Shown in pieces: positions 11,851 to 56,411 of a stretch of DNA of 64,000 nt. The position numbers and the translations under genes were made by a program. The notes beneath the pieces were generated by a model. It searched no databases, was not told the DNA's origin, and saw nothing but the letters and a program-made list of their open reading frames with translations. Origin of the DNA: Prosthecobacter fusiformis (GTDB taxonomy: Bacteria > Verrucomicrobiota > Verrucomicrobiia > Verrucomicrobiales > Verrucomicrobiaceae); NCBI RefSeq assembly GCF_004364345.1, contig NZ_SOCA01000003.1, positions 620,001 to 684,000 on the forward strand. The letters run 5' to 3'. Positions within the stretch are counted from its first letter, which is position 1; the number at the start of each line of letters is the position of its first letter.

Positions 11851-14800
11851 ATGACTTCGAAGCTCGTCTCCTCCGGAAACAACCGGCACGCCTCGGCCGG
11901 CATCTCATTATTCATTGGCCTGGCTTTGGTTTTAGTCTTTTTCGGCACCAGCGCGACGATCGCGTTCTTCAATATCAGCACCCTGCAAAAGGTAACCAAC
12001 GATGTCTCCCACACTCATGAGGTGACCATAGCCCTCGAAGATCTCGTTTCGTTTGTGAAAGACGCCGAGACAGGGCAGAGAGGCTACGTCATCACCGGTG
12101 AAGAAAGGTATCTTGAACCTTATACATTCGCCCTTGCCCATATTGAGGAACGGGTGGAGGACGTCAGAAAACTGACCGCTGATAACCCGGACCATCAGGC
12201 CCAGCTTCCGGAGATCCAGGCCCAGATTGACCTCAAGCTGAAGGAGCTGGCCGAATCCATCACCGTGCGGCGTGCAGAGGGTTTTGAAGCTGCGCGTGCT
12301 ATCGTGGTGTCGGATCGTGGCAAGGCCTCAATGGACAGGCTGCGGGATCGCATTGTGACCATGCAGCAGGACGAGCGCAAGCTGCGGAAACAACGCCTCG
12401 AAGAGAGGGATATCGCCTTTCGGGCGGCGGTGCAAAGCGGGCTGGTGTCAGCTCTCGTGGGGGGGCTCCTCGCCGTGGTCGTCAGTGTCCTGCTGCGCCG
12501 GACGGATCAGGCACGGTGGAGGCAGGAGTGGCTGCAGACCGGGCAGGCAGGTCTGAGCGCCAAGCTCATTGGCGAACAGCGTCTGGATGTGCTTGGGGAC
12601 AATGCTTTGCAATTTCTGTGCGAATATCTCGGGGCCCAGGCTGGGGCCATTTTCATTGAAGATGGCAGTAAGTTTCGCCGCTGCGCGACCTATGCGGTGC
12701 CTTCATCGGCCAGCTTGCCGGAGAGCTTTGCACCGGGTGACGGCCTGCTTGGCCAAGCCGTCAAGGATGCACGTCCTTTCCTCGTTCGGGACGTTCCAAT
12801 GGGGTATCTTAAAATTGGTTCGGCACTTGGGAAAAATCCACCGCGCCACATGCTCATTGCTCCTGCTCTCATCGATGGCGGAGTCAATGCGGTTGTGGAA
12901 CTGGGCTTCTTCGAGCCCGTGCCCGAGGCTTCCATTGAACTGCTGATTCGCACCGCAGAATCCATTGGCGTGGCGGTCAATTCCGCCAAGTCCAGAGCCC
13001 GCATTTTGGAGTTGCTGGAAGAAACCCAGCGCCAGTCTGAGGAGGTGCAGGCGCAGAGCGAGGAACTGCGCGTCTCCAACGAGGAATTGGAGGAGCAGAG
13101 CCAGGCCCTTCAGAAAACGCAGTCACAACTGGAAAACCAACAGGCCGAACTGGAGCAGACCAACCTGCATCTCGAAGCGCAGGCGCGGCTGCTCGAAGCG
13201 CAAAAAGACGATCTCGTGGTGGCCAAGCTGGACCTGGAAAGCCAGGCGCGCGTGGTTGAACAGGCCAGCCAGTACAAGTCAGCCTTCCTTGCCAACATGT
13301 CCCACGAGCTGCGCACGCCGCTCAATTCTTCGCTCATCCTCTCCCAGCTTCTGGCAGAAAATCGCCACGGCAATCTCACGGAAGAACAGATCAAATACGC
13401 GCGCACCATCCAGAGCTCCGGCAATGACCTGCTCGCCCTGATCAATGATGTTCTCGACCTTTCGAAGATCGAAGCAGGCCGCATGGACCTGACGCCGCAG
13501 CGCATCAACATCACTCAGTTGCTGGAAACCTTGCGCAGCCAGTTTGAACCGGTCGCGTCCAATCGAGGTCTGGCCCTTCAGCTGACCATCGCACCTAAAG
13601 CTCCGCAAAGCATAGAAACGGATCCGCATCGCCTGGAGCAGGTGCTTCGCAATCTTTTGTCCAATGCGCTGAAGTTTACTGAGAAGGGCGAAGTGGCGAT
13701 GGAAGTTGCCGCCGCCGCCCAGGGTCGTGTATCGTTTGCTGTCCGGGATACCGGCATCGGTATTGAGGCCGAGCAGCAGCGCCTCATTTTTGAACCGTTT
13801 TGCCAGGCGGACGGAACGACCAGCCGCAAATATGGCGGCACCGGTCTTGGCCTGTCCATCTCACGGGAGCTGGCACGGCTGCTTGGGGGCGAAATAGTGC
13901 TCACGAGCCAGATCGGTCGTGGCAGCGTATTCACCGTCATTCTGCCCCAGACCCTCAAAGCCGCTGCTCCTGAGGCTGAACCCGCGCCTGTCACCTACGA
14001 GCCAGCGTCCACACCTTCCCCTGCTTCTCTTCGGCCGTCTGCGCCATCCGCCCCCTCCAAGCCAGTCACGTTGCAGCAAATCGTGGCCGATGATCGGGAA
14101 AAGCTCAGCAGTTCCAAGCAAATGATTCTGGTGATCGAGGATGATGCTAGCTTTGCGGAGATCCTCACCCACCTAGCCCATGAGCAGAATTTCCAGTGTC
14201 TCGTGACGTCCAGTGCCCACGAGGCACTGGAACTGGCCCGGGAGCACCTGCCTAGCGCCGTGGTGCTGGATGTCGGGCTTCCCGATGGCTCGGGTCTTTT
14301 TGTGCTCGACCGGCTCAAGCACGATGCGCGCACGCGACACATCCCGGTGCATGTTGTGTCAGGCAGCGACTATGCGGAGAAGGCGCTTGCGATGGGAGCG
14401 GCCGGCTACATGCTCAAGCCGGTCCCGCGTGAGAAACTCGCCGATGCCTTTCAGGCGCTGGAAAAACGGCTTACACATCGGCTGCGGCGGGTGTTGGTGG
14501 TAGAGGATGATCCCATCCAGCTCGGCGCGCTTTGCTCCCTTCTTTCTTCCCGCGAGGTCGAGGCCATTGGCGCGCAGGATGCCGCAGGCTGCTTGGAGCA
14601 ACTTCAGGGGGATACCTTTGACTGCATGGTGCTGGATCTTAGCCTGCCAGATGCCAGCGGTTTTGCGCTCTTGGAAAAAATCAGTGCTGACGAGTCTTAT
14701 CCTTTCCCGCCTGTGATCATCTACACCGGCCGAGAACTGAGCGCCGATGAAGAACAGCGCCTGCGTCGTTACTCCAAATCCATCATTGTCAAAGGGGCCA

Positions 14801-16720: not shown

Positions 16721-18246
16721 CCCCCCCGACGATCAAGTTTCTGCTTGTGGATGATCTGGACGCCAACCTCCTGGCCCTGGAAGGTCTGCTGCGCCGGGAT
16801 GGGTTGGAGCTTCTCAAGGCGCGCTCTGGGCCTGAGGCGTTGGAACTGCTGCTCGTTCACGATGTGGCGCTCGCCTTGCTGGATGTGCAGATGGCGGGTA
16901 TGGATGGCTTTGAGCTGGCTGAACTGATGCGCGGCACCGAGCGCACCCGGCGCGTGCCGATCATCTTCCTCACCGCTGGCGCGGTGGATCAGCAGCGGCG
17001 CTTTCGCGGGTATGAAGCCGGTGCGGTGGATTTTATCTTCAAACCCATCGAAGCCCATATTTTGCAGAGCAAGGCCGGCATCTTTTTTGAACTGGCCAAG
17101 CAGCGCGAGGCTCTCCGCCAAAATGCCGAGGAAGCCCATGCCGCCAGCCGTGCGAAGGATGATTTTCTCGCTGCCCTGAGCCACGAACTGCGCACCCCGC
17201 TGACGCCTGTTTTGATGAGCGCGGCCTCCCTTCAGGACGATCAGCGGCTTCCTGCCGACGTGCGTGAACAGCTCGCCATGATGCGGCGTAACATTGAGCT
17301 GGAAGCGCGCCTCATCGACGATCTCCTTGACGTCACCCGCATCAGCCGTGGCAAGCTCACCATTGCCCCGATCCCCGCCGATATTCACGAACTCCTGCGG
17401 CACAGCGACGACATCATCCGCAGCGACGGACAGGATAAAAACGTGCAGGTGGACTTTGAACTCACAGCCGTGCGGCATCATGCGCTGGCCGATCCCACCC
17501 GTCTGCATCAAGTCTTCTGGAACCTGCTGAAAAACGCGCTCAAGTTTTCACCTGCCGGAGGGACCGTGACTGTGCGTACGCGTAACGATGCGGAGGACAG
17601 GCTGGTCTTGACGGTGGAAGACCACGGCGTCGGCATCAGCCCGGAGGCGCTGCCGCACATCTTCCGCGCCTTTGAGCAGGGGGATGTGGTCGGGCAGCAC
17701 CGCTTTGGCGGACTTGGCCTGGGACTTGCCATTTCGCAGGCCATTGTGGAGGCTCACAGTGGGGAGATCCATGCCGACAGCCCCGGCGTTGGCCAGGGGG
17801 CCACCTTCATGGTTGCTCTGGCCACGGTGGAGGCGCCTGCAGTCGCGGCAGACACGCCGGCAGAACCCGCTTCATTGGCCCCGGCATTGCGCTTGCTCAT
17901 TGTTGAGGACCATGAAGCGACTCGTACCATGCTCGCGCGCCTGCTTTCCAAAAGTGGCCATCGCGTCACACTTGCCAGTTCCATCGCCGAAGGTCTTGCC
18001 GCGGTTGCCCTGGATCATTTCGATGCTGTCATCAGCGACCTTGGCCTGCCGGATGGCAGCGGTCTGGACCTCATGCGGGAGATCCGCCGTCAGCGTCCCG
18101 TCCACGGCATCGCCCTCAGCGGGTATGGCATGGAAGAAGACGTCCGCCAGACCCGCGAGGCCGGCTTCTTCGCCCACCTCGTCAAGCCTGTCAGCATTGA
18201 TCAACTCCGCCAGCTCCTCGCTCACATTCCTCAGGCGGTTAAGTGA
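16717..18246 (+). CDS. Soluble hybrid histidine kinase: REC-HisKA-HATPase-REC
   Basis: The 509-residue protein has no membrane helix. Its order is receiver (Asp56 in LALLDVQMAGMDG), short linker, HisKA with His156 in LSHELRTPLTPVL, HATPase with FGGLGLGLAIS, and a C-terminal receiver with Asp441 in VISDLGLPDGSG. The start overlaps the cheB stop by four bases. The C-terminal kinase-receiver half is clearly similar to that of the 51111-53186 protein, including LTPV after the H-box, RRN(I/V)xLEA(R/H)LI(D/N)DLLD and the terminal ALSGxGMxEDV stretch. It is probably the output of this operon, with phosphate entering through the N-terminal receiver. No DNA-binding or enzymatic output domain is present, so the end effector is unknown. 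Confidence 0.92.
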   Translation: MTPPTIKFLLVDDLDANLLALEGLLRRDGLELLKARSGPEALELLLVHDVALALLDVQMAGMDGFELAELMRGTERTRRVPIIFLTAGAVDQQRRFRGYEAGAVDFIFKPIEAHILQSKAGIFFELAKQREALRQNAEEAHAASRAKDDFLAALSHELRTPLTPVLMSAASLQDDQRLPADVREQLAMMRRNIELEARLIDDLLDVTRISRGKLTIAPIPADIHELLRHSDDIIRSDGQDKNVQVDFELTAVRHHALADPTRLHQVFWNLLKNALKFSPAGGTVTVRTRNDAEDRLVLTVEDHGVGISPEALPHIFRAFEQGDVVGQHRFGGLGLGLAISQAIVEAHSGEIHADSPGVGQGATFMVALATVEAPAVAADTPAEPASLAPALRLLIVEDHEATRTMLARLLSKSGHRVTLASSIAEGLAAVALDHFDAVISDLGLPDGSGLDLMREIRRQRPVHGIALSGYGMEEDVRQTREAGFFAHLVKPVSIDQLRQLLAHIPQAVK

Positions 18247-26328: not shown

Positions 26329-27174
26329 CTATGACCCTCCGCCACCACTGGTGCCTGAGCTGCCTCCACCGCTGCCGCCCGAGCTACCACCACCGCTGGA
26401 GCCCGAACTTCCGCCGCCACTGGTGCCTGAGCTACCGCTTCCGCTAGTGCCCGAACTGCCGCTTCCGCTAGTGCCCGAACTGCCGCTTCCGCTAGTGCCT
26501 GAGCTGCCGCTTCCGCTGGTGCCTGAGCTGCCGCTTCCGCTGGTGCCTGAGCTGCCGCTTCCGCTAGTGCCTGAGCTGCCGCTTCCGCTAGTGCCTGAGT
26601 TAGAGTTGGTGCCGGTGGAATTAGGATTGCTGCTATTGCTATTAGCATTGCTCCTTGTTCCTGTGGCATTGGGGTTGGTGGTATTGCTATTGGCGTTGCT
26701 ACCATTGGCGTTGTTGCCGTTGGCGTTTGTGCCTCGATTGAAGCCGTTGGCGTTGACGCCCGTATTGGCATTTACACCTGTGTTGTTAGGGGTGTTGGTG
26801 CCCATGGCAGGATTGGTGGTCGTTCCTGTGGCTGGGTTTGTGTTATTTACGGAGCCATTGCCGCTAGCGGGGCTCTGCATGGAAGCGTTACCGCCTGACA
26901 TTTGGCTGGAGGCTTGGGCAAACTCACTCTGGTCCAGTGTGCCGTCGCCGTTAGTATCAAACTGACGGAAACTGTCCTGTGAAGCAGTCTGTGTATTGGT
27001 TGTCTCTCTGCTGGGCAGGACGTTTTGGCCAGCCGTGCTACCTGTGCCGACGGGTCCTTCCGAAGGAATGACGGGTGCGCCGGTTGCGGTGGTGCCCTGG
27101 CTTTGGGCATAGATCATCACAGGTGCAAAAGTGATGCCCGTGATCAACAATGTTCTAACAAATGAAGTTTTCAT
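26329..27174 (-). CDS. Secreted EF-hand protein with Asn-rich region and GTSGSGSS tandem repeats
   Basis: From the ATG at 27172-27174 this is a 281-residue exported protein with a signal peptide (MKTSFVRTLLITGITFAPVMIYA). A single EF-hand loop is present with Asp73, Asn75, Asp77 and Glu84 (DTNGDGTLDQSE). An Asn/Thr-rich tract (~110-200, TNPNATG-like units) follows. The C-terminus is an array of about eight GTSGSGSS octapeptides grading into Gly-rich GGSS units. The first half suggests calcium binding; the tail resembles flexible linkers or surface-displayed low-complexity regions. There is no cell-wall anchor or barrel. An open frame reaches 27297, but the signal peptide fixes the start. Confidence 0.8.
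   Translation of the reverse strand: MKTSFVRTLLITGITFAPVMIYAQSQGTTATGAPVIPSEGPVGTGSTAGQNVLPSRETTNTQTASQDSFRQFDTNGDGTLDQSEFAQASSQMSGGNASMQSPASGNGSVNNTNPATGTTTNPAMGTNTPNNTGVNANTGVNANGFNRGTNANGNNANGSNANSNTTNPNATGTRSNANSNSSNPNSTGTNSNSGTSGSGSSGTSGSGSSGTSGSGSSGTSGSGSSGTSGSGSSGTSGSGSSGTSGSGSSGTSGGGSSGSSGGGSSGGSGGGSSGTSGGGGS
26340..26600 (-). repeat. 24-bp tandem repeat array coding GTSGSGSS
   Basis: Within the EF-hand gene, a 24-bp unit (plus-strand form like TGCCGCTTCCGCTAGTGCCTGAGC) recurs about seven to eight times with few substitutions between about 26410 and 26600. Diverged units run down to 26340. The unit length is a multiple of three, so copy-number changes would keep the frame. Confidence 0.85.
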
Positions 27175-27315
27175 GTGGGTTGGAATGGGGTGAATGCATG
27201 GCCCCCATAGAGTCGGAAAAGTTCTTTCCAGCCCGGAGGTTGCAAAGGGGTTCGCAACAGCCAAACGGACCGGATGTCTGTTCCCGTTATTCCCCACTCA
27301 CCATCGTCCGCGTGA

Positions 27316-29236: not shown

Positions 29237-30397
29237 ATGAGATCTGCCTTCATAGACAAGCTTCTGAAACGCATGGACCGCCTGGAACCGGCGGAGGTCC
29301 AGGGCGTGATTTTGGAGCTGATGAAGGAAAAAGGTTTCTTAGAGAAGACCTTTCAGGCGCTGCAGGAGGGCGTCATTCTGCTGGATACGGAAAGCCGTGT
29401 CACCTACGTCAACAGTGCGGCCTGTCAGCTTTTTGGTCTGAAGGAGGAGCAGGTGAAAGGGCAGAAGCTGACCCAGGGCATGCGCGGGCTGGACTGGGGA
29501 GAACTCCTGAAACCAGGCACGGTCGTGAGCCGGGATATCGAGACTTTCTATCCCGAAAATCGGTATCTCAATTTCTACATCACCAGCATTGATGATGACC
29601 AGCCGATGGGTTTTGTGATGCTGATCCGCGATGTGACGGAAACGCGGAAACGCACGGAGGAACAGATCGAGAGTGAGCGGCTGAATGCCTTTACCCTGTT
29701 GGCTGCCGGGGTGGCGCATGAACTGGGAAATCCGCTCAATTCGCTGACCATTCATCTGCAATTGCTGGAGAGAAGACTGAAGAAAATGGGCAAGCCTGGG
29801 GAGCCTTTACGCGAGCACCTGGACGTGGCTACGGGGGAGATCAAGCGCATGGACGGCATCATCAGCCAGTTCCTCGCCGCCATCCGGCCGACGAAGCCGC
29901 AGTTTCAGCGTATTCACATCGCCGACCTGCTTCAGGAAAGCCTACGTTTTTTAAAACCGGACCTGGACCAGGCCAAGGTGAAGGTGCGCCTGGACTTGCG
30001 GGCGGACATGCCCTCCATGCCACTGGACGCGGACCAGATGAAACAGGCTATCTACAATCTCATCCGCAATGCCTGCCAGGCCATGCCCAAGGGTGGCAGC
30101 CTGACCATTCACGGCAGCTTCACGGACTTCGAAGTGAGACTGAGTTTTGAAGACAGCGGCAAGGGCATCAGCCCGGAGCAGATGGGGAAATTATTCCAGC
30201 CTTTTTCCACCACCCGCAGTACCGGTACCGGCCTGGGCCTGCTGATCGTGCGCCGCATCATTCGTGAGCACGGTGGCGAAATTGACATCGAAAGCCGTGC
30301 AGGCAAAGGCACCCGCGTCAGTCTGTGGCTACCGCTGGTGGAGCGGAAAGTGCGGCTGCTAGAGGCAGGCAATCCGGACTTGGCAGGCAATGCTTGA
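29237..30397 (+). CDS. Soluble PAS-HisKA-HATPase sensor kinase (NtrB-like)
   Basis: The 386-residue protein has no membrane helix. It has a PAS domain at ~35-135 (GVILLDTESRVTYVNSAACQLFGL), HisKA with a His near 155 in GVAHELGNPLNSL, and a HATPase with N box NLIRNACQAMPKG and TGTGLGLLIVR. The H-box form AHELGNPL is typical of kinases that pair with sigma-54 activators. A sigma-54-type response regulator lies 290 bp downstream (30688), separated by one small gene, and is the probable partner. The PAS ligand is unknown. The start is 3-12 bases from the divergent cutA start. Confidence 0.92.
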   Translation: MRSAFIDKLLKRMDRLEPAEVQGVILELMKEKGFLEKTFQALQEGVILLDTESRVTYVNSAACQLFGLKEEQVKGQKLTQGMRGLDWGELLKPGTVVSRDIETFYPENRYLNFYITSIDDDQPMGFVMLIRDVTETRKRTEEQIESERLNAFTLLAAGVAHELGNPLNSLTIHLQLLERRLKKMGKPGEPLREHLDVATGEIKRMDGIISQFLAAIRPTKPQFQRIHIADLLQESLRFLKPDLDQAKVKVRLDLRADMPSMPLDADQMKQAIYNLIRNACQAMPKGGSLTIHGSFTDFEVRLSFEDSGKGISPEQMGKLFQPFSTTRSTGTGLGLLIVRRIIREHGGEIDIESRAGKGTRVSLWLPLVERKVRLLEAGNPDLAGNA

Positions 30398-30635: not shown

Positions 30636-30687
30636 CACGTAGCCTGGAATATTCGAAACCCGATTTGAAGAATACTTGGAGAAACGT

Positions 30688-32109
30688 ATGACCGATCCAG
30701 CCACCATTCTCATCGTTGATGACGAAAAACATACTCGGGACGGGTTGCGCCTGTCGCTGGAGGATGACTTTGACTGCTACGTGGCCTCCAATGCGGCGGA
30801 GGCGATGGAGCATCTGAAAAATGATCAGGTGGATGTGATGCTGACAGACCTTCGGTTAGGCGAAGACAATGGCATGAAGCTGCTGGAGGAGGCGCTGCAT
30901 CTGCCGCACCCGCCGGTGTGCATCATGATGACGGCTTATGGCAGCGTGGATACAGCCGTGGAGGCGATGCGGCGTGGGGCTTATCACTTTGTCACAAAAC
31001 CGCTGAACCTGGATGAGGTGGAACTGCTGGTGAAGCGGGCGCTGCGCAGCCGCAGTCTGGAGCGTGAGAACAAGGCACTGAAGCAGCAGGTGGAGCAGAA
31101 GTACTCCATCGAGGGGATCCTAGGCAAGGCGGATACGCTGAAGCCTATCCTGGAAACCATTCAGCAGGTGGCACCGACCCGTGCCACGGTTTTGATTGAA
31201 GGCGAAAGCGGCACGGGCAAGGAATTGGTGGCGCGGGCTGTACACAATCTCAGCGGGCGACCCAAGGCGAAACTGGTGACGGTGCATTGCGCAGCGTTGT
31301 CCCCACAGATTTTGGAGAGTGAGCTCTTCGGTCACGAAAAGGGCTCATTCACTGGAGCGCAGGAACGGCGGATTGGCCGTTTCGAAATGGCGGACGGAGG
31401 CACTCTTTTCCTGGATGAAATTGGCGAGATCGATGCCAGCACCCAGGTGAAACTGCTGCGAGCTTTGGGGGAGCAGGTCATCGAGCGTGTGGGTGGCAGC
31501 AAACCCATCAAGGTGGATGTGCGTGTGGTCGCAGCGACGAACAAGAACCTGGCCAAGCTGGTGGAAGAGGGAAAATTCCGTGAGGACTTGTACTGGAGGT
31601 TGCGGGTGGTGACCATCCTGATGCCGCCGCTGCGTACGCGCAAAGGTGATATCCCCCTGCTGGCAGATCACTTTCTCAAAGACCTAGCCACTGCGAATGG
31701 CAAAAGCTACAAGCCGCTTGGAGAAGATGCACTGCCGCTGCTGATGACCTATGACTGGCCAGGCAACGTGCGTGAATTGCGGGCGGCCATTGAGCACGGA
31801 GTGGTGATGAGCAACAGCACACGCGTGATGGCCAAGCACCTGCCCGCTTACCTGTCCCAGCCCGGTGGGCTGGGCTGGCGTGTGCCCGTGGCCCCTGCAA
31901 AGAGTACCAACGAGACTGCGATAGATGAGCCGCCGAAGGCTGAACTGGACATCCATGAGATGGAAAAGCATCTCATTGTCGAGGCCCTGGAACGTGCCGG
32001 GAACAATCGCAGTGAAGCTGCGGATCTTCTCAACATGAGCCGGCGCACTCTCCAGCGGAAACTCAAAGAAATGGGCATGGTGCGGAAGCACCGCAAGCGG
32101 GTGAAGTGA
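30688..32109 (+). CDS. Sigma-54-dependent response regulator (NtrC family)
   Basis: The 473-residue protein has a receiver (Asp54 in MLTDLRLGEDNG), an AAA+ sigma-54 activation domain with Walker A GESGTGKE (~166-173), the sigma-54 contact loop GSFTGA (a common variant of GAFTGA), Walker B GGTLFLDEIGEI, and a C-terminal Fis-type helix-turn-helix (NRSEAADLLNMSRRTLQRKLKEM). The ATG at 30688 has GGAG seven bases upstream; a TTG at 30676 would add four residues. It should activate sigma-54 promoters when phosphorylated by the upstream PAS kinase. I did not find a convincing -24/-12 element nearby, so its targets are likely elsewhere. Confidence 0.95.
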   Translation: MTDPATILIVDDEKHTRDGLRLSLEDDFDCYVASNAAEAMEHLKNDQVDVMLTDLRLGEDNGMKLLEEALHLPHPPVCIMMTAYGSVDTAVEAMRRGAYHFVTKPLNLDEVELLVKRALRSRSLERENKALKQQVEQKYSIEGILGKADTLKPILETIQQVAPTRATVLIEGESGTGKELVARAVHNLSGRPKAKLVTVHCAALSPQILESELFGHEKGSFTGAQERRIGRFEMADGGTLFLDEIGEIDASTQVKLLRALGEQVIERVGGSKPIKVDVRVVAATNKNLAKLVEEGKFREDLYWRLRVVTILMPPLRTRKGDIPLLADHFLKDLATANGKSYKPLGEDALPLLMTYDWPGNVRELRAAIEHGVVMSNSTRVMAKHLPAYLSQPGGLGWRVPVAPAKSTNETAIDEPPKAELDIHEMEKHLIVEALERAGNNRSEAADLLNMSRRTLQRKLKEMGMVRKHRKRVK

Positions 32110-32118
32110 TGTAGAATG

Positions 32119-34338
32119 TTACTTCTTCAGCACGGGCAGCAGGGCGCGGACGGTAGTGCCCTGGTTGGGGGCGCTCTGGATTTTGAGGGCACCGTGGTGG
32201 CTTTTGATGATGCCGAGGGTGGCGGCCATGCCGAGACCACGGCCGGTGAATTTGGTGGAAAAGAAGGGGTCGAAGACCATTTGGAGGACTTCGGGACTCA
32301 TGCCTTTGCCGGTATCAATGATGTCCAGGTAGAGATACTCACCTGGATCAGGCGCGGGATCGATCTGGCTATCCTGGAGATAGGCGGCATCGCATAAAAG
32401 GGTGCCGGTGCGCAGATAGACGGTGCCGCTTCCTTCGGTGGCTTCGGAGGCATTGGTGAGGAGGTTGATGAGGAGATGGCGCAGGCTTTCGCGGTCAGCA
32501 TGAATGATGACTTCTGGGCCGTCATGCTGCCATTCAAGCTCATGCGTGGAGGGCAGGCAGCATTTGAGAGTGGGCAGGGATTCGTCCATGAAGGCACGCA
32601 AGCGGGTCTCCTCAAACTGGTGCAGCCCGTGGCCGGTGCAGGTGAGGAGGACACGGTTGAGCGCGGCGACGCGCTGGCTCTCCCGCAATACGCCGTCCAT
32701 GAATTCACGTGTCTGCCCTGGGGGCGTTTGCAGGCGCGCTAGCTCGGCATAGCTGGTCAGTGCCTGAAGGATGTTGTTGGAATGATGACAGACGCCGTTG
32801 GCCAGGCGGTGAAGGCTTTCGTATTTTTGGGACTGGAGCAGGCGGTCTTTGAGCCGGGTCTGATGTTCCTCTGCGGCTTTGAGGGAAGTGATGTCCTCAA
32901 TGACGCTGAGAAGACCGATGATGTCCCCAAGCTCGTTTTTCAGGGGCACTTTACTCTGATAAAAATGACGGGTGCTGCCGGAGGGGGAGGTGAGGCTTTT
33001 TTCACTGAGCAGGATGGAGCGGCCCTGCTGGATGACTTGCTCCTCAGTGACTTCATCTTGGGCATCATCCTTCCAAGGCAGACGGTCTGCTGTCAGGCCT
33101 TGTGCCTGCTGCGGGGAACCCAGGCCGGCGTAACCGGCGAAGACCTGATTGCAACCGAGGATGCGGGAGTCACGGTCTTTCCAGAAGACGCCGACGGGGA
33201 TGGTATTGATGACGGTCTGCAGCATGGCCTGGGATTCGCGGGCCTGGCGCTCGGCATTGGTGATGCGGTTGTTTACCCGGATGAGGCCGAGGACGATGCC
33301 GCCGAGGAGAAGGGTGCTGCCAATGGTGCCGCCTAGCGTCCAGAGGAGCCAGGCGAGGTCGGTCTTGGGCTCCCGGTCATAAAGGAAACCGTCCAGGCTG
33401 TAACCGGGGGCCAGCATGCCGAGGCGGACATAGGTATCCCCGATGTGACGCCAGCGGCCTTCATTCATGTGGCCGATGTCGATGAGCTCGGAGAACATGA
33501 GGAGGGCCATTTGATCCGCCTCATCATTCAGGGCTTCACGGCTGAGCGGGCAATGGTAGCGGCCTTTGAGAAGATCGATGATCTCCACACGGTGGCTCAT
33601 GGCGTACTGCCAGCCTTTGAGGGTGGCTTCGAGAAAGGCGCGGACGCGTTTGGGATGCCGGGCGATTTCATCCTCGGTGGTGAAAAGGCAGTCTCCGTAA
33701 AAATCCACACCGTAATCGCGGGGCTGGATGAGCCGGTAGGGGATGCCGAGCTTTTGGAGCTGGAAGGGTTCGTTGATGCTGTAAGCGCCCATGCCGGCGA
33801 TTTCACCGGACAGCATTTTTTCCGGGCTGAATTCATAAGGGATGGTCTTGACGGCATCGGCAGCCAGACCCTCATTTTTGAACATGGCCAGCAGGGCAGG
33901 GGTATCCTCCGGCGAGGCAGCGACGGTGCGTCCGGCCATCTGGTGCGGGGTATTGATACCACTGGAGCCAGGTACGAGGAGCACCTCCGGAGAGTGCTGG
34001 AGGATGGCCGCCAGTGCGACGAGGGGCTTGCCCTCATTGCGATGAATCAGCATGGAGGAAAGAGCCACAGCATAGTGGCATTTTCCGGTGATAAGCTCAT
34101 GGGCGAAATTGGTCTCAGGACCGCCTTCGACGAGGGTCACCTCCAGCCCCGCCTCCTTATAAAAACCTCTTTCCACGGCGGCATAATGGCCGGCGAACTG
34201 GAAGGCATGCTTCCATTTAAGCTGGACCGTGATGCTGTCTTGGGCGGAGATGGCCAGACCGGGCAGCAGGATGAAAAGCCAGAGCAAGAACTGCTGTAGC
34301 GTGCTTCGAAGGTTGGTGATGGACAACGTCACGTTCAT
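32119..34338 (-). CDS. Sensor histidine kinase with fused NMT1/SsuA-type substrate-binding domain
   Basis: The 739-residue protein begins with a signal sequence (LLWLFILLPGLAISA) and then a periplasmic ABC-type binding domain of the NMT1/THI5-like class (~35-330; VQLKWKHAFQFAGHYAAVERGFYKEAGLEV). A membrane helix (LAWLLWTLGGTIGSTLLLGGIVLGLI) lies near 345-370. A PAS domain with FWKDRDSRILGCN follows at ~390-510, then a kinase core. The H-box reads LANGVCHHSNNILQAL, where usual forms have IAHDFNN, so the acidic residue after the phospho-His is replaced by His. The HATPase has GRGLGMAATLG. Family knowledge suggests recognition of pyrimidine precursors of thiamine or sulfonates; the ligand is not known. 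No response regulator is adjacent. It is convergent with the NtrC-type gene. Confidence 0.9.
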   Translation of the reverse strand: MNVTLSITNLRSTLQQFLLWLFILLPGLAISAQDSITVQLKWKHAFQFAGHYAAVERGFYKEAGLEVTLVEGGPETNFAHELITGKCHYAVALSSMLIHRNEGKPLVALAAILQHSPEVLLVPGSSGINTPHQMAGRTVAASPEDTPALLAMFKNEGLAADAVKTIPYEFSPEKMLSGEIAGMGAYSINEPFQLQKLGIPYRLIQPRDYGVDFYGDCLFTTEDEIARHPKRVRAFLEATLKGWQYAMSHRVEIIDLLKGRYHCPLSREALNDEADQMALLMFSELIDIGHMNEGRWRHIGDTYVRLGMLAPGYSLDGFLYDREPKTDLAWLLWTLGGTIGSTLLLGGIVLGLIRVNNRITNAERQARESQAMLQTVINTIPVGVFWKDRDSRILGCNQVFAGYAGLGSPQQAQGLTADRLPWKDDAQDEVTEEQVIQQGRSILLSEKSLTSPSGSTRHFYQSKVPLKNELGDIIGLLSVIEDITSLKAAEEHQTRLKDRLLQSQKYESLHRLANGVCHHSNNILQALTSYAELARLQTPPGQTREFMDGVLRESQRVAALNRVLLTCTGHGLHQFEETRLRAFMDESLPTLKCCLPSTHELEWQHDGPEVIIHADRESLRHLLINLLTNASEATEGSGTVYLRTGTLLCDAAYLQDSQIDPAPDPGEYLYLDIIDTGKGMSPEVLQMVFDPFFSTKFTGRGLGMAATLGIIKSHHGALKIQSAPNQGTTVRALLPVLKK

Positions 34339-34419: not shown

Positions 34420-35466
34420 ATGATTCCACGATTTCTCATCATTGGCCAGGGGCTGGCGGGCACTGCGCTGGCCTGGAGTCTGCATCAATGTGGGGTGGGT
34501 TTTCTCATCGTGGACAGGGATGAAGAGTTGACCTCATCCAAAGTGGCGGCGGGGTTGGTGACGCCAATCACGGGAATGCGCCTAAATTTGAACTGGCGCT
34601 ATGACACATTATATCCTGAAGCGATATATTTTTATCGCGGGATCGAGCAACGGCTGCAGGCGCGGTTTTATCATGAGGTGCCCATCATACGTCTGCTACG
34701 GGATGAGAAGGCGGCGGCACTGTGGGAAAAGCGGCGCATGCAGCCGGAAGTGCAGCCTTACCTCTGCAAAGTGGAAGGGCCGCTGGTAGATGACGCGGTA
34801 TTTGACAATCCGCAGGGCGGCTTCCAGCAGCAGCACAGCGGCTGGCTGGATACAGCGGCTTTTTTGAAGGCGAGCCGGGATTACTTCGAAAAACTCGGCT
34901 GCTGGCAGGCTGGGGAGGTGTCCTGGCAGGACCTGGAATTGAAGGATGGGGGTGTGTGTTGGCAGGGCACGTTTTATACCAGCGCCCTTTTTTGCACAGG
35001 CTGGGAGGCGGCACGGCATCCATGGTTCGACTGGGTGCCCTTCCGCAGTGCACGGGGAACGGTGCTGAATGTGGAGGCGGATACTGGGGGCGAGAGCCGC
35101 ATCATCAATCGCGGCTGCTGGCTGCTGCCGCGTGCGGATGGCAGTCTGCGGGTAGGGCCGACATATGAACTGGATTTTGAAGATCCGCATGTGCCTTCCC
35201 CCGTGGCCCTGGCTGGGCTGGAGCAAAAGCTGCGTGCTCTGCTGAAGCGGGACTTTTTAGTGAAAGGAAGCCAGACCGGAGTGCGACCGATCATCCAGGG
35301 TCATCAAGCCCTCATTGGCCGACATCCAGCGCGTCCGCAGATTGGATTTATGAACGGTCTCGGCTCCAAAGGAGTACTGCGTGCCCCCTGGGTGGCCCGA
35401 CAACTGGTGGCGCATCTGCTGGAGGGTGCGGAGATCGAAGCGGGGCTGGACCTAGCGGGAAATTGA
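34420..35466 (+). CDS. FAD-dependent oxidoreductase, DAO family
   Basis: From MIPRFLIIGQGLAG the protein has 348 residues. The N-terminal Rossmann fingerprint is FLIIGQGLAGTALAWSL (GxGxxG), followed by an acidic residue in FLIVDRDEE that would bind the FAD ribose. The C-terminal FAD contact GVRPIIQGHQALIG and GLGSKGVLRAPWVA are typical of DAO-type enzymes, including the MnmC C-terminal and glycine-oxidase groups. The substrate is probably an amine or amino acid but is not identifiable. The gene is divergent from the NMT1-kinase gene (starts 82 bp apart). Confidence 0.85.
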   Translation: MIPRFLIIGQGLAGTALAWSLHQCGVGFLIVDRDEELTSSKVAAGLVTPITGMRLNLNWRYDTLYPEAIYFYRGIEQRLQARFYHEVPIIRLLRDEKAAALWEKRRMQPEVQPYLCKVEGPLVDDAVFDNPQGGFQQQHSGWLDTAAFLKASRDYFEKLGCWQAGEVSWQDLELKDGGVCWQGTFYTSALFCTGWEAARHPWFDWVPFRSARGTVLNVEADTGGESRIINRGCWLLPRADGSLRVGPTYELDFEDPHVPSPVALAGLEQKLRALLKRDFLVKGSQTGVRPIIQGHQALIGRHPARPQIGFMNGLGSKGVLRAPWVARQLVAHLLEGAEIEAGLDLAGN

Positions 35467-51110: not shown

Positions 51111-53186
51111 CTAATGTGCTAGTGCAGCTTCCAACTGCGTAAACTGCACAGGCTTAGTGAGGTGATGTAGGTAGCCACTATCCAGGGATCTTTGCACATC
51201 CTCTTTCATGCCAAATCCGCTCAGGGCGATGGCGTGCACCTTCTGGATCTTCATCACCTCACGCAGGACATCCATCCCGTCACCGTCAGGCAGTCCCACA
51301 TCACTGATGAGGATCTGCAGCCCGGTCACCTCTGCCGCTTGAGCAGCCGCCTCCGCCACACTCGTCGCCACATGCACCTCATGTCCCCTGCGGCGCAGCA
51401 GCCTCGCCAGGGAGTCGCGGGTATCTTCATGATCTTCCACCAGCAGGATGCGCCATTGTGCCCGCGTCGGCTTATGGCTTTCTGTTGCTCCGCTGACATC
51501 GTCAGATTGACCGTCCGCAGCATCCACGGGCTTGATCTTGGGGATAAGCTCCAGTTGCATCGGCAGCGCCAGCCGGAAGGTGGAGCCCTGGTTGGCTCCT
51601 GCACTGGTGGCACTGAGCCGCCCGTGATGTCGTTCTACGATGGCTTTGCTAATCGCCAGCCCCAGGCCCAGGCCACCATGCTGTCGGTTAGGCTGCCGTC
51701 TTTCCTGCTGAAACGCTTCAAAAATTCGTTCCAGCATTTCCGGCTCGATGCCTGCACCGCTGTCGGTGACTTCCAGCACCATGAAAGGTTGGCCCGTGCG
51801 CGATTCACTCTTGAGGCTTACTTCAATGCTGCCGTGATTTGGAGTAAACTTGATGGCGTTTTGCAGCAGATTCCAGACAACTTGTGTCAACCGGACTGAG
51901 TCTCCCATCAGGCAGGCATCCTGGATCTCCGTGTGAATATGGATGGTAGGCTGCTCTCGGTCCCCGGTCTTGCACATCTCCACCACTTCCCGGATGATGC
52001 GGGCCATATCCACCGGCTGGAAGCTGAACTCCATCTTGTCCTGCGTGATGCGTGTCAGGTCCAGCAGGTCATTGATCAGGTGCGCCTCCAGCTGCACATT
52101 GCGGCGGATCATTTGAAAATCCCGTCGCACATCCTCAGGCAGGGAGGCATCCTGGCTGCGTTCCTCCACCACAGCCATCACCGGTGTCAGCGGAGTGCGC
52201 AGCTCATGGCTTAGCATCGCCATGAACTGGTCCTTGGCCGCGCTTGCCCGTTTCAGCTCTTCTTGGGATCGCTTCAGTTCCTCCACCAGCTCAGCCCGCG
52301 CCTCAGCTGCTTCTTTCGCCGCCCGTTCCCTCAGCGCCTCCAGCTCCTTCTGGCGGAATTCTTGTAAAATTCGGTTGTTCTCCTCAGCGAAAAACTTCCG
52401 CCTGAGCAGCGCGCGGATACGCCCTTTCAGGATGGAATAGTCATTCGATTTGCCCACAAAATCATCCGCCCCCGCCTCCAGCGCTCTGGATAAATTATCT
52501 GTGGAATCTGCCCCGGTTAACAAAATGGTGATCAACGGCAGATGCAGGCTTTTACGCAAAGCGTTCACGTGTTTGCACACCTCAAACCCGTCCATCCTAG
52601 GCATCACCAGGTCGATGATCACACCGTCAAATTTTCTTTCCCCCAGTCGCTTGATGCCTTCTTCTCCATCGGTGCAGGTCTCCAGTTTGTAGCCTTCCTT
52701 GGAGAGTTCATGTTTCAGGCGGTCCAAAAAGATCGCGCTGTCATCAATGGCCAGTAGGTGGACGTCTTGAAATGAGGAATCCTCAGAGCCATGAATGATG
52801 CGTTCATTCAGGCCGGATTTTTGCAGCAGCGTCCGCAGTCTCAGCAGCAGCACCTCTGGATTCGTAGATTTGGCCACGAAGTCATCCGCGCCGCTGTCCA
52901 GCCCCTGCACCTGCTGCCCTTCTTGGGAGGTCAGCATCACGATCGGCAGGCTGCGGGTATCCACATTCATGCGGATGCGGCGGCAGACCTCATCCCCACG
53001 GATGCCAGGCAGATGGTAGTCCAGCAGGATCAGGTCCGGCAGGGTTTCCCGGAGTGTGGAGAAAGCCTTCTCTGCGCTCGAAACCCAGGTGACCCTCCAG
53101 CCCTCTTGCTCCAACAGCGCGGTTAGGCTGATGGCTTGGGTAGTGGAATCCTCCACCAGCATGACATGATAGCTCCGTTCATTCAT
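51111..53186 (-). CDS. Soluble hybrid kinase REC-REC-HisKA-HATPase-REC, output gene of the chemosensory operon
   Basis: The 691-residue protein has two N-terminal receivers (Asp56 in LILLDYHLPG, Asp192 in VIIDLVMPRMDG), a coiled coil (~265-315), HisKA with His327 in LSHELRTPLTPVM, HATPase with HGGLGLGLAIS, and a C-terminal receiver with Asp629 in ILISDVGLPDGDG. There is no membrane or DNA-binding segment. Its ATG overlaps the cheB stop (53183-53186). It lies where Wsp systems encode the WspR GGDEF regulator, so it may receive phosphate from CheA and act as a relay. The kinase core and last receiver are similar to the 16717-18246 protein. The final effector is not encoded here. Confidence 0.93.
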   Translation of the reverse strand: MNERSYHVMLVEDSTTQAISLTALLEQEGWRVTWVSSAEKAFSTLRETLPDLILLDYHLPGIRGDEVCRRIRMNVDTRSLPIVMLTSQEGQQVQGLDSGADDFVAKSTNPEVLLLRLRTLLQKSGLNERIIHGSEDSSFQDVHLLAIDDSAIFLDRLKHELSKEGYKLETCTDGEEGIKRLGERKFDGVIIDLVMPRMDGFEVCKHVNALRKSLHLPLITILLTGADSTDNLSRALEAGADDFVGKSNDYSILKGRIRALLRRKFFAEENNRILQEFRQKELEALRERAAKEAAEARAELVEELKRSQEELKRASAAKDQFMAMLSHELRTPLTPVMAVVEERSQDASLPEDVRRDFQMIRRNVQLEAHLINDLLDLTRITQDKMEFSFQPVDMARIIREVVEMCKTGDREQPTIHIHTEIQDACLMGDSVRLTQVVWNLLQNAIKFTPNHGSIEVSLKSESRTGQPFMVLEVTDSGAGIEPEMLERIFEAFQQERRQPNRQHGGLGLGLAISKAIVERHHGRLSATSAGANQGSTFRLALPMQLELIPKIKPVDAADGQSDDVSGATESHKPTRAQWRILLVEDHEDTRDSLARLLRRRGHEVHVATSVAEAAAQAAEVTGLQILISDVGLPDGDGMDVLREVMKIQKVHAIALSGFGMKEDVQRSLDSGYLHHLTKPVQFTQLEAALAH

Positions 53187-54256
53187 GAGCTCGCTGAGGG
53201 TGGGTTAAAGAGCAGGGCCAGGCGTGCGCCGATTTCTTCCAGGGGTAGGGTGGCTGTTGCCGCCCCCAGTTTCACCGCCGCCGCCGGCATTCCATAGACG
53301 ACGGAAGTCGCTTCATCTTGGGCGATGGTATATGCCCCCGCTTGGTGCATGTCACGCATCCCCAGGGCTCCGTCCTCTCCCATACCCGTGAGCAAGACCG
53401 CCGCAGCCCCTGTGCCGAGAGGAGTCAGCGACTTTAACAGCACCGTTCCTGATGGCTTCTGGGTATTCACCGGAGGCGTGTTGAGCAATTGGATTTGGAA
53501 AGGTTCCGCATAGGCCATGTGCACATCCGCCGGTGCCACATAGACGGTCCCTGCCTGCAAAGGCATACAGTGCTGCGCCTCCACCACTTTGAGGCCTGGC
53601 ACCACACCGCCGAGCCAGGTCACAAACCCACGCACAAATCCGGGTGTGATATGCTGGACTAAAAGGATGGGTGCGGGGAAATCCGCAGGCAGTGAATTGA
53701 GCACTTGTACGATGGCATTGGGTCCGCCTGTGGACGCCACCATGCCCAATACCCGCGGGCACGGACATTTCTCTGCTGGCAGCGTGGACCGCTGCCGGGC
53801 AGGCACGACTTCGGGCTTCGGGATATACGTCCGGTAACGCTGCCGGATCACCCTCACCTCGCTCATGATCGCCAGCTTCGTACACAGTTCCGAAGACAGC
53901 CTTTCATAATCTGCGTGGCGCAGACCCACCGGCTTTTGCACCACAGAAAGTGCACCTGCCCGGAGGGCATTCATCGAGATCTTTAATTCATCATCCTCAA
54001 CATCAGACGACACCACCACGATGGGGGTGGGGAATTCGTTCATGATGCGTTGTGTCACTTCCAGTCCGTTCATTCCTGGCAGCCGGATGTCCAGGGAGAT
54101 GATGTCCGGCCGGGTATTGGCCAGGGTTTTCAGCGCCTCTTCACCGCTTCGGACACTTGCAATGACCTGCAACCGTGGATCACGGTTGATGATGTGATGC
54201 AGGAACTCGCTCACTACCTGGGAGTCCTCCACAATCATGACTGAAACTTTTTTCAT
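53183..54256 (-). CDS. cheB: CheB protein-glutamate methylesterase with N-terminal receiver
   Basis: From MKKVSVMIVEDSQ the protein has 357 residues (54274 is an alternative start). The receiver has Asp56 in IISLDIRLPG. The catalytic domain has Ser in VASTGGPNA, His in LLVQHITPGF and Asp in TGMGEDGALG. A basic, Pro-rich linker (~135-165) joins them. It should remove methyl groups from the adjacent MCP and be activated by CheA phosphorylation, as in the WspF role. It overlaps the downstream hybrid-kinase gene by ATGA and follows cheA after 106 bp. Confidence 0.95.
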   Translation of the reverse strand: MKKVSVMIVEDSQVVSEFLHHIINRDPRLQVIASVRSGEEALKTLANTRPDIISLDIRLPGMNGLEVTQRIMNEFPTPIVVVSSDVEDDELKISMNALRAGALSVVQKPVGLRHADYERLSSELCTKLAIMSEVRVIRQRYRTYIPKPEVVPARQRSTLPAEKCPCPRVLGMVASTGGPNAIVQVLNSLPADFPAPILLVQHITPGFVRGFVTWLGGVVPGLKVVEAQHCMPLQAGTVYVAPADVHMAYAEPFQIQLLNTPPVNTQKPSGTVLLKSLTPLGTGAAAVLLTGMGEDGALGMRDMHQAGAYTIAQDEATSVVYGMPAAAVKLGAATATLPLEEIGARLALLFNPPSASS

Positions 54257-54362
54257 GCGGCTTTTATCAATCAAAGGACCCCTCGCCCAAGAGGTAACAC
54301 AACCGCCTGACTTTTTGCCTTCATCGTGAATCGTAATTGGGGTTCAGGTTGGATGTCTGTAT

Positions 54363-56411
54363 CTATACCAATTGCCGTACAACGCTCAACAGTTCCTGGT
54401 GGTCGAAGCGTTCCTTCACAATGTAGGCATCCGCCCCGAGGGCAAGCCCGCGTTCCTGGTCCTCCTGGCTGCTGAGGGAGGTGACCAATATCAGCGGTAT
54501 ATCTGCCAGTGCAGGCTGGCTCTTCATCGTGGACAAAAGGCCGAATCCATCCAGGTGAGGCATTTGGATGTCACTCACCACCAGGGCTACCGTTTCAGCA
54601 TGCAGGATCTTCAGTGCCGCCCTGCCATCTTCGGCGATGCGCACATGATATCCCGCTGTTTCCAGGATGCTCTTTTGCAGTGTCCTGGCGGTGAAGGAAT
54701 CGTCCACCACCAGCACCGTTGCCTGTCGCGGTTTTTCCACAGCCTTCTGACGATTTTCCGGCACGGGTGTAGCCCGGCTGCGGTCAGCCAGGGTCAGGGT
54801 ATTGAGCACCAGCACTACTTGGCCTTCCTCGGTCACGATCGCACCGGAGAAATGCGGTGAACGCGATGCCGGATAGGGCAGGGGACGGATCAGTGCATGA
54901 AATTCGCCGATCACCGCCTCCACATGCAGCGCCAGGGGCTTTTCTCCCTGGAGCACTGCGACTTGCACCTTGCCGTCCTCATCCCGGGTGATGAGTGGCT
55001 GCGTCCCCGCTGCCTCCGCAGCGGTGATGACCTGGACCGCTCCACCGTCGATGAAGACCATGCTACGGCCGTCTGCCACATGCAGATCATCTACCCGGCG
55101 CAGATATTTGATCGAATTCAACGGCAGGGCAAAAAGACGTCCCGCTGCACGCAGCAATAGCAGCCGACGTGCAGAAATGCTCACCGGCACTCGGATCTCC
55201 AGGCTGCTGCCCAGTCCGTGCCGGGAAGTCATCTTTACCTGGCCCTGAAATTGGCTCACTCTTTCCCTGACGACGGACAACCCCACGCCCCTTCCGGATA
55301 CGGTGGTCAGTTCCGCTGCGGTTGAAAGTCCGGCGTGAAAGATCAGGTCAGTGATCGCTTCCGCTGTTTGCTGCTCCGCTTCAGTCACTGTTAGAAGTCC
55401 AGCGCGGATCGCTTTTTGCTTCACCTGCTCCACATCCACCCCGCCTCCATCATCACTGATGGTTAGGCGTAGAAAGTGCCCGTCGATGTCCATGTGCATG
55501 CGCACATCACCAGCCTCAGGCTTGCCAGCAGCCCGTCGCCGGGCTGGGCCTTCGATGCCGTGAGAGATGGCATTCCTCAGCGCATGCATCACCGGGTCCT
55601 TCAGTGCCTGGAGCACCGCCCTGTCCGCACGGTTTTCCGTCCCGGTCATGGTAAACCGTGCGGGCTTGCCAGTTTCACCTGACAGGTCCCGCATCATTTT
55701 TGGAAAACCCTCACACATGCTGCTGATGGGCACCATGCAGATATGCCCCACATTCTCTTGCACCCGGCTGCTGAGCACGCGGAGGCTGCGGCTGCCCTGC
55801 TGCTGGCGCGTGCGGATCTGCTGCAAATGCTTCCCGGCCTCCCTCACCTGAAAACGCAGGTCGCCTTCGTCAAGCCGGTCCTGATGGCTCAGGCTGCGCA
55901 ACTGCTCCAGTTCGCGAGCGAGCAGGCTCATCTCCCGCTCCAGGGACTCCTGCCGTGCCGCTTCGGTGAGAAGCTGGCCTGTGGATAAAAGCAAAGCTTC
56001 CAGCAGCACCGATTCGATGCGCAGCGTGTCATGCCCGCCCATGGGGGCGGGGCTTGCTTCGGTCTCAACACTATAGGTGGCCAGCTCCCTCTCCATGGCC
56101 AGGGCCATCGCATCCTCTGCCGCATCCGCATGGGAACTGATCCTCTCCTTGACCTCAGGCGTAGCGGAGATCTCCCCCTTGGTCAGTTGGGAAAGCGTAT
56201 GCTCCAGCTGGTGCGCAATGTCTTCGACCTCATTGAGATCACAAACACGGGCGCTGCCCTTCATGCTGTGGGCCATCCGAAAGGCCTCGTCCAGCAGCAT
56301 GCCGGAGTAGTATGGCCAGGCAGCCAGCATCGCCCGGATGGCCTGCATCTGCTCTTTGAATTCCGTCTGAAACGCGGCCAGCACTCGCTGATGGAGATCA
56401 GAGTCTGACAT
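54363..56411 (-). CDS. cheA: CheA-type histidine kinase with C-terminal receiver (WspE-like)
   Basis: The 682-residue protein has an HPt domain (His48 in MAHSMKGSARVC), a helical region, and a coiled dimerisation segment (~150-215). A CheA HATPase follows with HALRNAISHGIEGPARRR and SGRGVGLSVVRERV, then a CheW-like domain (~430-560) and a C-terminal receiver with Asp614 in VVSDIQMPHLDGFG. The segment MVPISSMCEGFPKMMRDLSGE before the ATPase matches the WspE/FrzE class and not E. coli CheA. There is no P2 CheY-binding domain, and no separate cheY gene is present, so the attached receiver is the likely immediate phosphate partner. It lies between the MCP and cheB genes. Confidence 0.95.
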   Translation of the reverse strand: MSDSDLHQRVLAAFQTEFKEQMQAIRAMLAAWPYYSGMLLDEAFRMAHSMKGSARVCDLNEVEDIAHQLEHTLSQLTKGEISATPEVKERISSHADAAEDAMALAMERELATYSVETEASPAPMGGHDTLRIESVLLEALLLSTGQLLTEAARQESLEREMSLLARELEQLRSLSHQDRLDEGDLRFQVREAGKHLQQIRTRQQQGSRSLRVLSSRVQENVGHICMVPISSMCEGFPKMMRDLSGETGKPARFTMTGTENRADRAVLQALKDPVMHALRNAISHGIEGPARRRAAGKPEAGDVRMHMDIDGHFLRLTISDDGGGVDVEQVKQKAIRAGLLTVTEAEQQTAEAITDLIFHAGLSTAAELTTVSGRGVGLSVVRERVSQFQGQVKMTSRHGLGSSLEIRVPVSISARRLLLLRAAGRLFALPLNSIKYLRRVDDLHVADGRSMVFIDGGAVQVITAAEAAGTQPLITRDEDGKVQVAVLQGEKPLALHVEAVIGEFHALIRPLPYPASRSPHFSGAIVTEEGQVVLVLNTLTLADRSRATPVPENRQKAVEKPRQATVLVVDDSFTARTLQKSILETAGYHVRIAEDGRAALKILHAETVALVVSDIQMPHLDGFGLLSTMKSQPALADIPLILVTSLSSQEDQERGLALGADAYIVKERFDHQELLSVVRQLV

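Follow-up and report, generated by a model that had tools for sequence, protein, structure and literature searches.

We analysed a window of 64,000 nucleotides from the verrucomicrobial bacterium Prosthecobacter fusiformis (assembly GCF_004364345.1, contig NZ_SOCA01000003.1, positions 620,001 to 684,000 of the forward strand), focusing on a sensor kinase gene (P0001; 32119..34338, minus strand) whose product carries a His-His pair (HH) at the phospho-acceptor site. The open frame runs from an ATG at 34338 to a stop at 32119 and encodes 739 amino acids, the domains of which were delineated by translation, Pfam and an AlphaFold2 model. A hydrophobic segment at residues 12-32 (34243..34305, from hydropathy; modelled helix at 8-28), either an anchor or a signal, precedes an NMT1/THI5-type binding domain (Pfam stretch 46-250, 33589..34203; fold match over approximately 32-323), which scores 160.5 bits against the NMT1 cut-off of 20.5 (E 7e-47). 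A membrane helix (residues 331-356, 33271..33348, from hydropathy; modelled helix 329-357) and a PAS domain (378-487, 32878..33207; PAS_4, E 4.5e-11) lead to the dimerization and histidine phosphotransfer (DHp) hairpin (490-567, 32638..32871; modelled helices 484-537 and 542-567) and to the catalytic and ATP-binding (CA) domain, recognized as HATPase_c at residues 615-736 (E 1.3e-18). All these features share the minus strand of the gene. The DHp scored 14.8 bits with Pfam HisKA (PF00512), under the gathering cut-off of 26.9, as did three orthologues (16.1-17.4 bits). The model, built from 22 sequences (mean predicted local distance difference test score 81.9, predicted template modelling score 0.47), shows the binding fold, the membrane helix, the PAS domain, the DHp hairpin and the CA domain, although the latter score makes their packing unreliable.

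The first-pass annotation of this DNA had described a binding domain of the NMT1/SsuA class, a single membrane helix, a PAS domain and a kinase in one protein. The architecture stands, but SsuA is not the closest match: the sensor fold is nearest to ThiY (3ix1; Z 32.4, root-mean-square deviation 2.7 over 291 residues), followed by a binding protein in complex with thiamin (4nmy, Z 30.5), THI5 (Z 27) and only then SsuA (Z 25). Thiamin or a pyrimidine precursor would thus be the nearest known ligand class. The shared fold goes along with low identity (20% to ThiY and 18% to 4nmy), and while those two are free transport proteins, the domain is here fused to a kinase. The kinase part resembles CckA both in sequence (5idj, E 2e-25, residues 501-737) and in fold (Z 23.5 over 180 residues, chiefly in the CA domain).

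The H-box reads GVCHHSNN (residues 515-522, 32773..32796), as first noticed, and lies in an intact frame. His518 is the residue aligned with the acceptor, followed by His519 (position H+1), Ser520 (H+2), Asn522 (H+4) and a Gln at H+7. In a wide comparison table of related kinases, His518 matches the acceptor of all 74 rows with a His-Asp (HD) pair, with Asn at +4 and without gaps in the H-box, and it likewise matches the acceptor of 21/21 HDFNN kinases (drawn from the 36 kinase-only matches listed in a search of the phylum). These alignments lead us to reject an H-box shifted by one residue, in which the second His, His519, would be the phospho-acceptor; such a shift had been offered in the first-pass annotation and is favoured by the mere presence of two His residues, but we give it next to no chance, the more so as, according to PMC8292422, the Deinococcus radiodurans bacteriophytochrome DrBphP uses the first His (H532). 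The HH pair is more than a chance match, since it sits at the kinase acceptor position and is kept in all six orthologues.

The ATP-site motifs downstream are in order: the N-box NLLTNA (residues 625-630, 32449..32466), the G1 box DTGKG (675-679, 32302..32316) and the F and G2 boxes FDPFFSTKFTGRGLGM (689-704, 32227..32274) are intact, with both N-box Asn residues and the remaining motifs fully kept in 6/6 orthologues, so that the pseudokinase status that G-box loss would have signalled finds no foothold. Measured against the features that define HisKA kinases, the acidic residue at H+1 is replaced by His in 6/6 orthologues, Thr/Asn at H+4 is represented by Asn in 6/6, and the CA domain has its N-box, G1, F and G2 boxes. 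The first N-box residue is Asn625, in place of the Glu by which the HWE/HisKA2 class is defined in PMC12148442. The HD kinases of the wide table have a hydrophobic H+2 residue and the N-box Asn in 74/74 cases and all tabulated CA residues in 73/74; Ser at H+2 occurs in that table only in the clade of the present kinase.

Orthologues were found, among the matches listed, in 6/68 genomes of the family (up to 16 candidates being scored per genome), its own included, and all six fall within its own genus (48 genomes): besides the gene itself, four full-length relatives at 78-84% identity and one, truncated where its contig ends, at 68%. Their H-box is G[VI]CHHSNN in 6/6 cases, and the pair is thus no private substitution, an option that the first-pass annotation had left standing. 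Of the kinases fused to NMT1 whose H-box is NN-type and whose sequence is long enough, 20/26 have HD and 6/26 HH, the former being more distant fusions and the latter five orthologues and L129, which comes from a different family in the phylum; the cut relative L130 of this second lineage also has HH. This count leaves aside the cut frames (L107/L130 with HH, L111 with HD, and the cut orthologue) as well as L131, in which NMT1 and H-box fall in different frames. Hence HH is fixed in the clade of this kinase and is present in the NMT1 fusions of two lineages. A receiver-like tail, found in 11/11 aligned Asp-type rows, is present in none of the six orthologues.

Of the five domains and linkers measured, the DHp is the most constrained (69/85 columns invariant, median ratio of nonsynonymous to synonymous substitution rates, dN/dS, of 0.027) and the CA domain less so (71/131 columns, 0.16), these ratios, like those that follow, being only rough, as the dS medians exceed 1. 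In a five-genome comparison the median for the CA domain was 0.154 in this kinase, against 0.092 in an NMT1-HD paralogue, 0.078 in another HD kinase and 0.052 in the NtrB-type kinase next to it; the DHp medians, in that order, were 0.033, 0.031, 0.093 and 0.019. The CA domain is therefore somewhat looser than in three other kinases, yet purifying selection persists. This looser constraint could be taken as a sign of a decaying gene heading for loss, and a remnant stripped of most of its coding sequence does exist in a relative. Against this stand median dN/dS values that are far under 1 for each domain, full-length frames in five genomes and the retention of all tabulated motifs, and we regard decay as very improbable; pseudogene status is rejected for this gene by the dN/dS constraint. 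The remnant, a true one, is that in L064 (4488-4962), a Verrucomicrobiaceae contig, where pieces corresponding to residues 30-112 and 670-736 survive in shifted frames and with a stop, after a large internal loss.

What an HH pair may mean for activity can be gauged from a few studied kinases. The acid at H+1 is the general base of the reaction (PMC7005713), and its replacement in CrdS, HK853, HK1190 and HK4262 abolished kinase activity and left phosphatase activity (Willett and Kirby 2012, PMC3510030). In CrdS this held for E372A/D/G/Q at H+1, and I373A/K at H+2 also lost the kinase activity, while Asn or Thr at H+4 (N375 in CrdS) was required for the phosphatase (PMC3510030). CrdS/NtrB-type HisKA kinases share with the present protein the Asn at H+4 and differ in having, at H+1, a Glu that the kinase activity requires, where His is found here. 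In DrBphP, where His occurs naturally at H+1, kinase activity is missing and the protein works as a phosphatase that depends on ATP; the reverse change, H533D, did not revive the kinase, whereas D529H in Agp1 destroyed kinase activity (PMC8292422). The same source describes the acid after the acceptor His as strictly conserved and a His in its place as very rare and tied to the loss of the N-box Asn. Passages of PMC12471899 and PMC11164954 showed nothing on H+1, a literature search for HH H-box strings returned, among the papers listed and as judged by titles, none on kinases, and a search for NMT1-fused kinases returned, at title and abstract level and among the matches listed, no study of such a kinase.

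Taking these together, we tentatively favour, at somewhat short of even chances, the reading that the kinase is a ligand-controlled, phosphatase-biased sensor in which the first His is the active one. Its observed basis is the domain order, HHSNN in 6/6 orthologues, the intact N- and G-boxes, the lack of a receiver-like tail and the tightly constrained DHp; the loss of kinase activity and the phosphatase activity we infer by analogy with the studied enzymes. Further points in its favour are the CA damage seen in part of the HH rows elsewhere and, in this kinase, a CA domain that evolves faster than those of three other kinases beside a DHp that stays tight. The periplasmic NMT1/THI5-type domain would bind a small molecule, and the signal would pass through the single membrane helix and the PAS domain to the DHp dimer, with His518 as the active residue. 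The changes from acid to His519 at H+1 and from a hydrophobic residue to Ser520 at H+2 would leave autophosphorylation weak or absent, whereas Asn522 and the ATP-binding CA domain may be retained for the ligand- and ATP-dependent dephosphorylation of a regulator charged by another kinase. DrBphP comes close in having both His at H+1 and a sensory module ahead of the kinase, although the sensor is here NMT1-type and membrane-bound. The combination of His at H+1 with the N-box Asn kept, Ser at H+2, no receiver and an NMT1 sensor is new, its parts being known.

Several observations weigh against this reading. DrBphP deviates at the very positions of interest (the N-box Asn is replaced by His648, H+4 is Glu and H+7 is Arg, as opposed to Asn, Asn and Gln here), and putting Asn at its H+4 (E536N), the residue found in our kinase, abolished its phosphatase (PMC8292422). 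In CrdS, I373A also lowered the phosphatase in part (PMC3510030). The full retention of the ATP-site motifs and the roughness of the dN/dS ratios belong on the same side, as does the fact that the HD rows of the wide table were selected by similarity to this kinase, which biases them towards intact domains. The remaining objections come from the distribution and descent of HH kinases elsewhere in the phylum, to which we turn below.

The pattern G[IV]xHHxNN was matched in 19/387 genomes of the phylum: three are orthologues, eight encode proteins with a degenerate CA domain (L072-L079), three are others (L080, L081, L086) and five (L082-L085, L087), dropped from the comparisons, have no kinase frame at the match, even though a reversed-pattern control gave 0 matches; taken alone, the pattern is thus not free of chance hits. 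In the wide table 11/18 HH rows depart from the CA consensus (eight by degenerate G-boxes, and L080, L081 and L086 by a substitution of the first Asn in the N-box). This Asn is nonetheless kept in 15/18, so that the published link between HH and its loss is only partly valid here. In proteins L072-L079 a GxAHHFNN H-box goes together with degenerate G-boxes and a receiver-like tail (with a PocR sensor in the one scanned, L074), and judging by these motifs they look like HH pseudokinases or phosphatases. As a separate observation, L091 (G000:C1:1212426-1213058) is a 247-residue DHp-CA-like frame with the H-box GLTHKLNN, that is, Lys at H+1, and is possibly a phosphotransferase-like protein.

A second pattern was matched in 5/384 genomes of the class, and 20 times in one of them (G535, 4.5 Mb). 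A looser pattern recovered from this genome 21 HH boxes, 20 with Ala (A-type, chiefly SLGRMAGAIAHHFNNQLQAV) and one with Gly at H-3, next to 29 H[DE] boxes, none of which has Ala at H-3. It thus seems that HH is family-wide in A-type kinases, with the proviso that the copies were found by the HH pattern and that residues other than D, E and H were not sought at H+1. These AIAHHFNN-type hybrid kinases comprise L129, L163-L177 and L181-L191 (except L185), the two latter series coming from G535, G587 and G342. In the seven A-type proteins scanned with Pfam, PAS or GAF and HATPase_c domains are present in 7/7 and a receiver in 6/7, and none gave a HisKA match at E 1e-4. Identity among 19 A-type copies of G535 that were aligned ranges from 54-86%, with a median of 67% (a range computed without L184 and L185, two HH rows of the same genome), and the receiver acceptor Asp is kept in 11/11 of the tails listed. 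Within G535, 19/21 HH and 28/29 H[DE] rows retain the first Asn of the N-box, and 16/21 and 27/29, respectively, have all tabulated CA residues (L184 possibly deviating only because it is cut). Gln at H+7 occurs in 29/45 HH rows (His in three) versus 8/113 HD/HE rows, and also in the present kinase, although the rows are related, so that this tally is no count of events.

That an expansion of 20 copies, with mostly intact CA domains and receivers, should consist of many phosphatase-only proteins would be odd, and the reading of our protein as an active kinase, in which the role of base falls to His519 (uncharged at cellular pH) or to some other residue and HHxNN is a working H-box held in common with the AIAHHFNN hybrids, is a serious if doubtful contender. 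It draws on the numbers of HH and H[DE] boxes in G535 with their mostly intact CA domains, on the apparently family-wide pair, on the conserved receiver Asp and on the shared Gln at H+7. Set against it are the published replacements, for the H+1 changes tested in CrdS, HK853, HK1190 and HK4262 (PMC3510030) and the Asp-to-His change in Agp1 (PMC8292422) all removed the kinase activity. Besides, Ser at H+2 is unique to our clade among the rows of the wide table, the receiver is missing from it, and the HH rows from G535, being paralogues, do not count as independent. In its broader form, which we consider somewhat unlikely, HHxNN would be a working alternative H-box of a verrucomicrobial kinase lineage, with the second His replacing the acid, a coupled Gln at H+7, an intact ATP site and a 20-copy expansion, occurring also in NMT1-fused sensors. 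The earlier suggestion of an altered balance of kinase and phosphatase thus gains from the published H+1 data (DrBphP and Agp1 D529H; CrdS E372), while the expanded HH family counsels caution.

The descent of the pair bears on the same question. In a first tree (71 rows, H-box included) the orthologues grouped with L086, L080 and L129 (support 94/86), and at least three HH changes were forced overall. Without the H-box and with nearer HD kinases added, they joined FTGRGLG-type kinases in an unresolved comb, the tree showing four HH changes, two of them forced (it covered 59 of the 92 rows, its bootstrap had not settled and it drew a long-branch warning), and a tree to which the A-type family had been added (45 of 108 rows, again without the H-box) placed them in an unresolved comb as well. 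An approximately unbiased (AU) test, on 44 rows without the H-box and leaving out the long row L162, the degenerate-CA rows and L081, did not reject a single clade of 18 HH rows including this kinase (p 0.563), and such a common origin, if real, would speak for an active kinase; grouping this kinase with the A-type family to the exclusion of L080 and L086 was rejected (p 0.017). As the degenerate-CA group stands apart in two trees, HH seemingly had no fewer than two origins within the phylum.

The DHp-CA part is best explained as deriving from HDFNN (CckA/VirA-like) kinases, a label (HDFNN/CckA-like) coined in this analysis for the nearest relatives, which are hybrids. With the FTGRGLG subtype of these (nearest L134 and L139, 40% identity) our kinase has in common the DHp-CA sequence, the N-box, G1, F and the short G2 'TKFTGRGLG', the hybrids differing in that H+1 is Asp, H+2 is Phe and a receiver-like tail follows (11 rows), as opposed to His, Ser and none. 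The AIAHHFNN hybrids share the HH pair, mostly the Gln at H+7 and the CA subtype, and L129 (32.5% identical) also the NMT1 sensor, but have Phe/Tyr at H+2, Ala at H-3 and a receiver in 6/7 scanned, in place of Ser, Gly and none.

A further alternative is that the protein is a non-catalytic partner, heterodimerizing with another kinase or phosphorylated by it in trans, in a DivL-like or phosphotransferase-like role. A review calls DivL a pseudokinase. The DHp as the most constrained part (69/85 invariant columns versus 71/131 in CA) would suit such a role, and potential partners exist, as the genome encodes two further NMT1-fused kinases (L002 and L071; one an orthodox HisKA, the other an HDFNN hybrid with a receiver). 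Since every ATP-site motif is retained, we hold this explanation to be unlikely.

Contrary to the first-pass annotation, which saw no adjacent response regulator, an NtrC-type regulator (receiver, sigma-54 AAA+ and Fis helix-turn-helix domains by Pfam; 30676..32109, plus strand) lies tail to tail with the kinase, their ends 9 bp apart, and the two genes are tail-to-tail neighbours in 6/6 loci. It is, by position only, a candidate partner of the phosphatase-biased sensor that we favour. The regulator is preceded by an NtrB-type kinase (PAS-HisKA-HATPase by Pfam; 29237..30397, plus strand), which, going by gene order, is probably its partner, so that the HH kinase need not be. The regulator is present in 42/48 genomes of the genus and the HH kinase in six. 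Ranked by NtrC identity, the five other kinase bearers come out on top (94-89%; next genome 88%), and the kinase thus seems confined to one subclade. In 6/7 of the next genomes the 15-kb stretch around the regulator contains neither the kinase nor the oxidoreductase described below. A comparison of NtrC receivers between six bearers and six non-bearers, made for signs of co-adaptation, gave two fixed differences, neither of them telling.

On its other side the kinase is divergent from a flavin adenine dinucleotide (FAD) oxidoreductase of the DAO family (Pfam; 34420..35466, plus strand), head to head both in its own locus and in 4/4 others with flank on that side. An identity as ThiO, which would have linked it to thiamin, was rejected (TIGR02352, 65.7 bits against a cut-off of 250.8), and no thiamin pyrophosphate (TPP) riboswitch reached the Rfam gathering score in the window, where the sole Rfam match at that score is a tRNA. 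Elsewhere in the window there are an open frame whose tail is a long GSSGTSGS repeat (26329-27297) and further kinase- or receiver-like stretches by similarity (13291-13947, 17170-18219, 51558-51902 and 53921-54716).

The significance of the finding lies in a His fixed at H+1 together with intact ATP-site motifs, as against the rarity and the tie to N-box Asn loss reported in PMC8292422. One and the same genome holds HD and HH kinases bearing the same type of sensor. The clade described here and the 20-copy HH expansion pose a choice for these bacteria: HH marks either a phosphatase or a second route to phosphohistidine.

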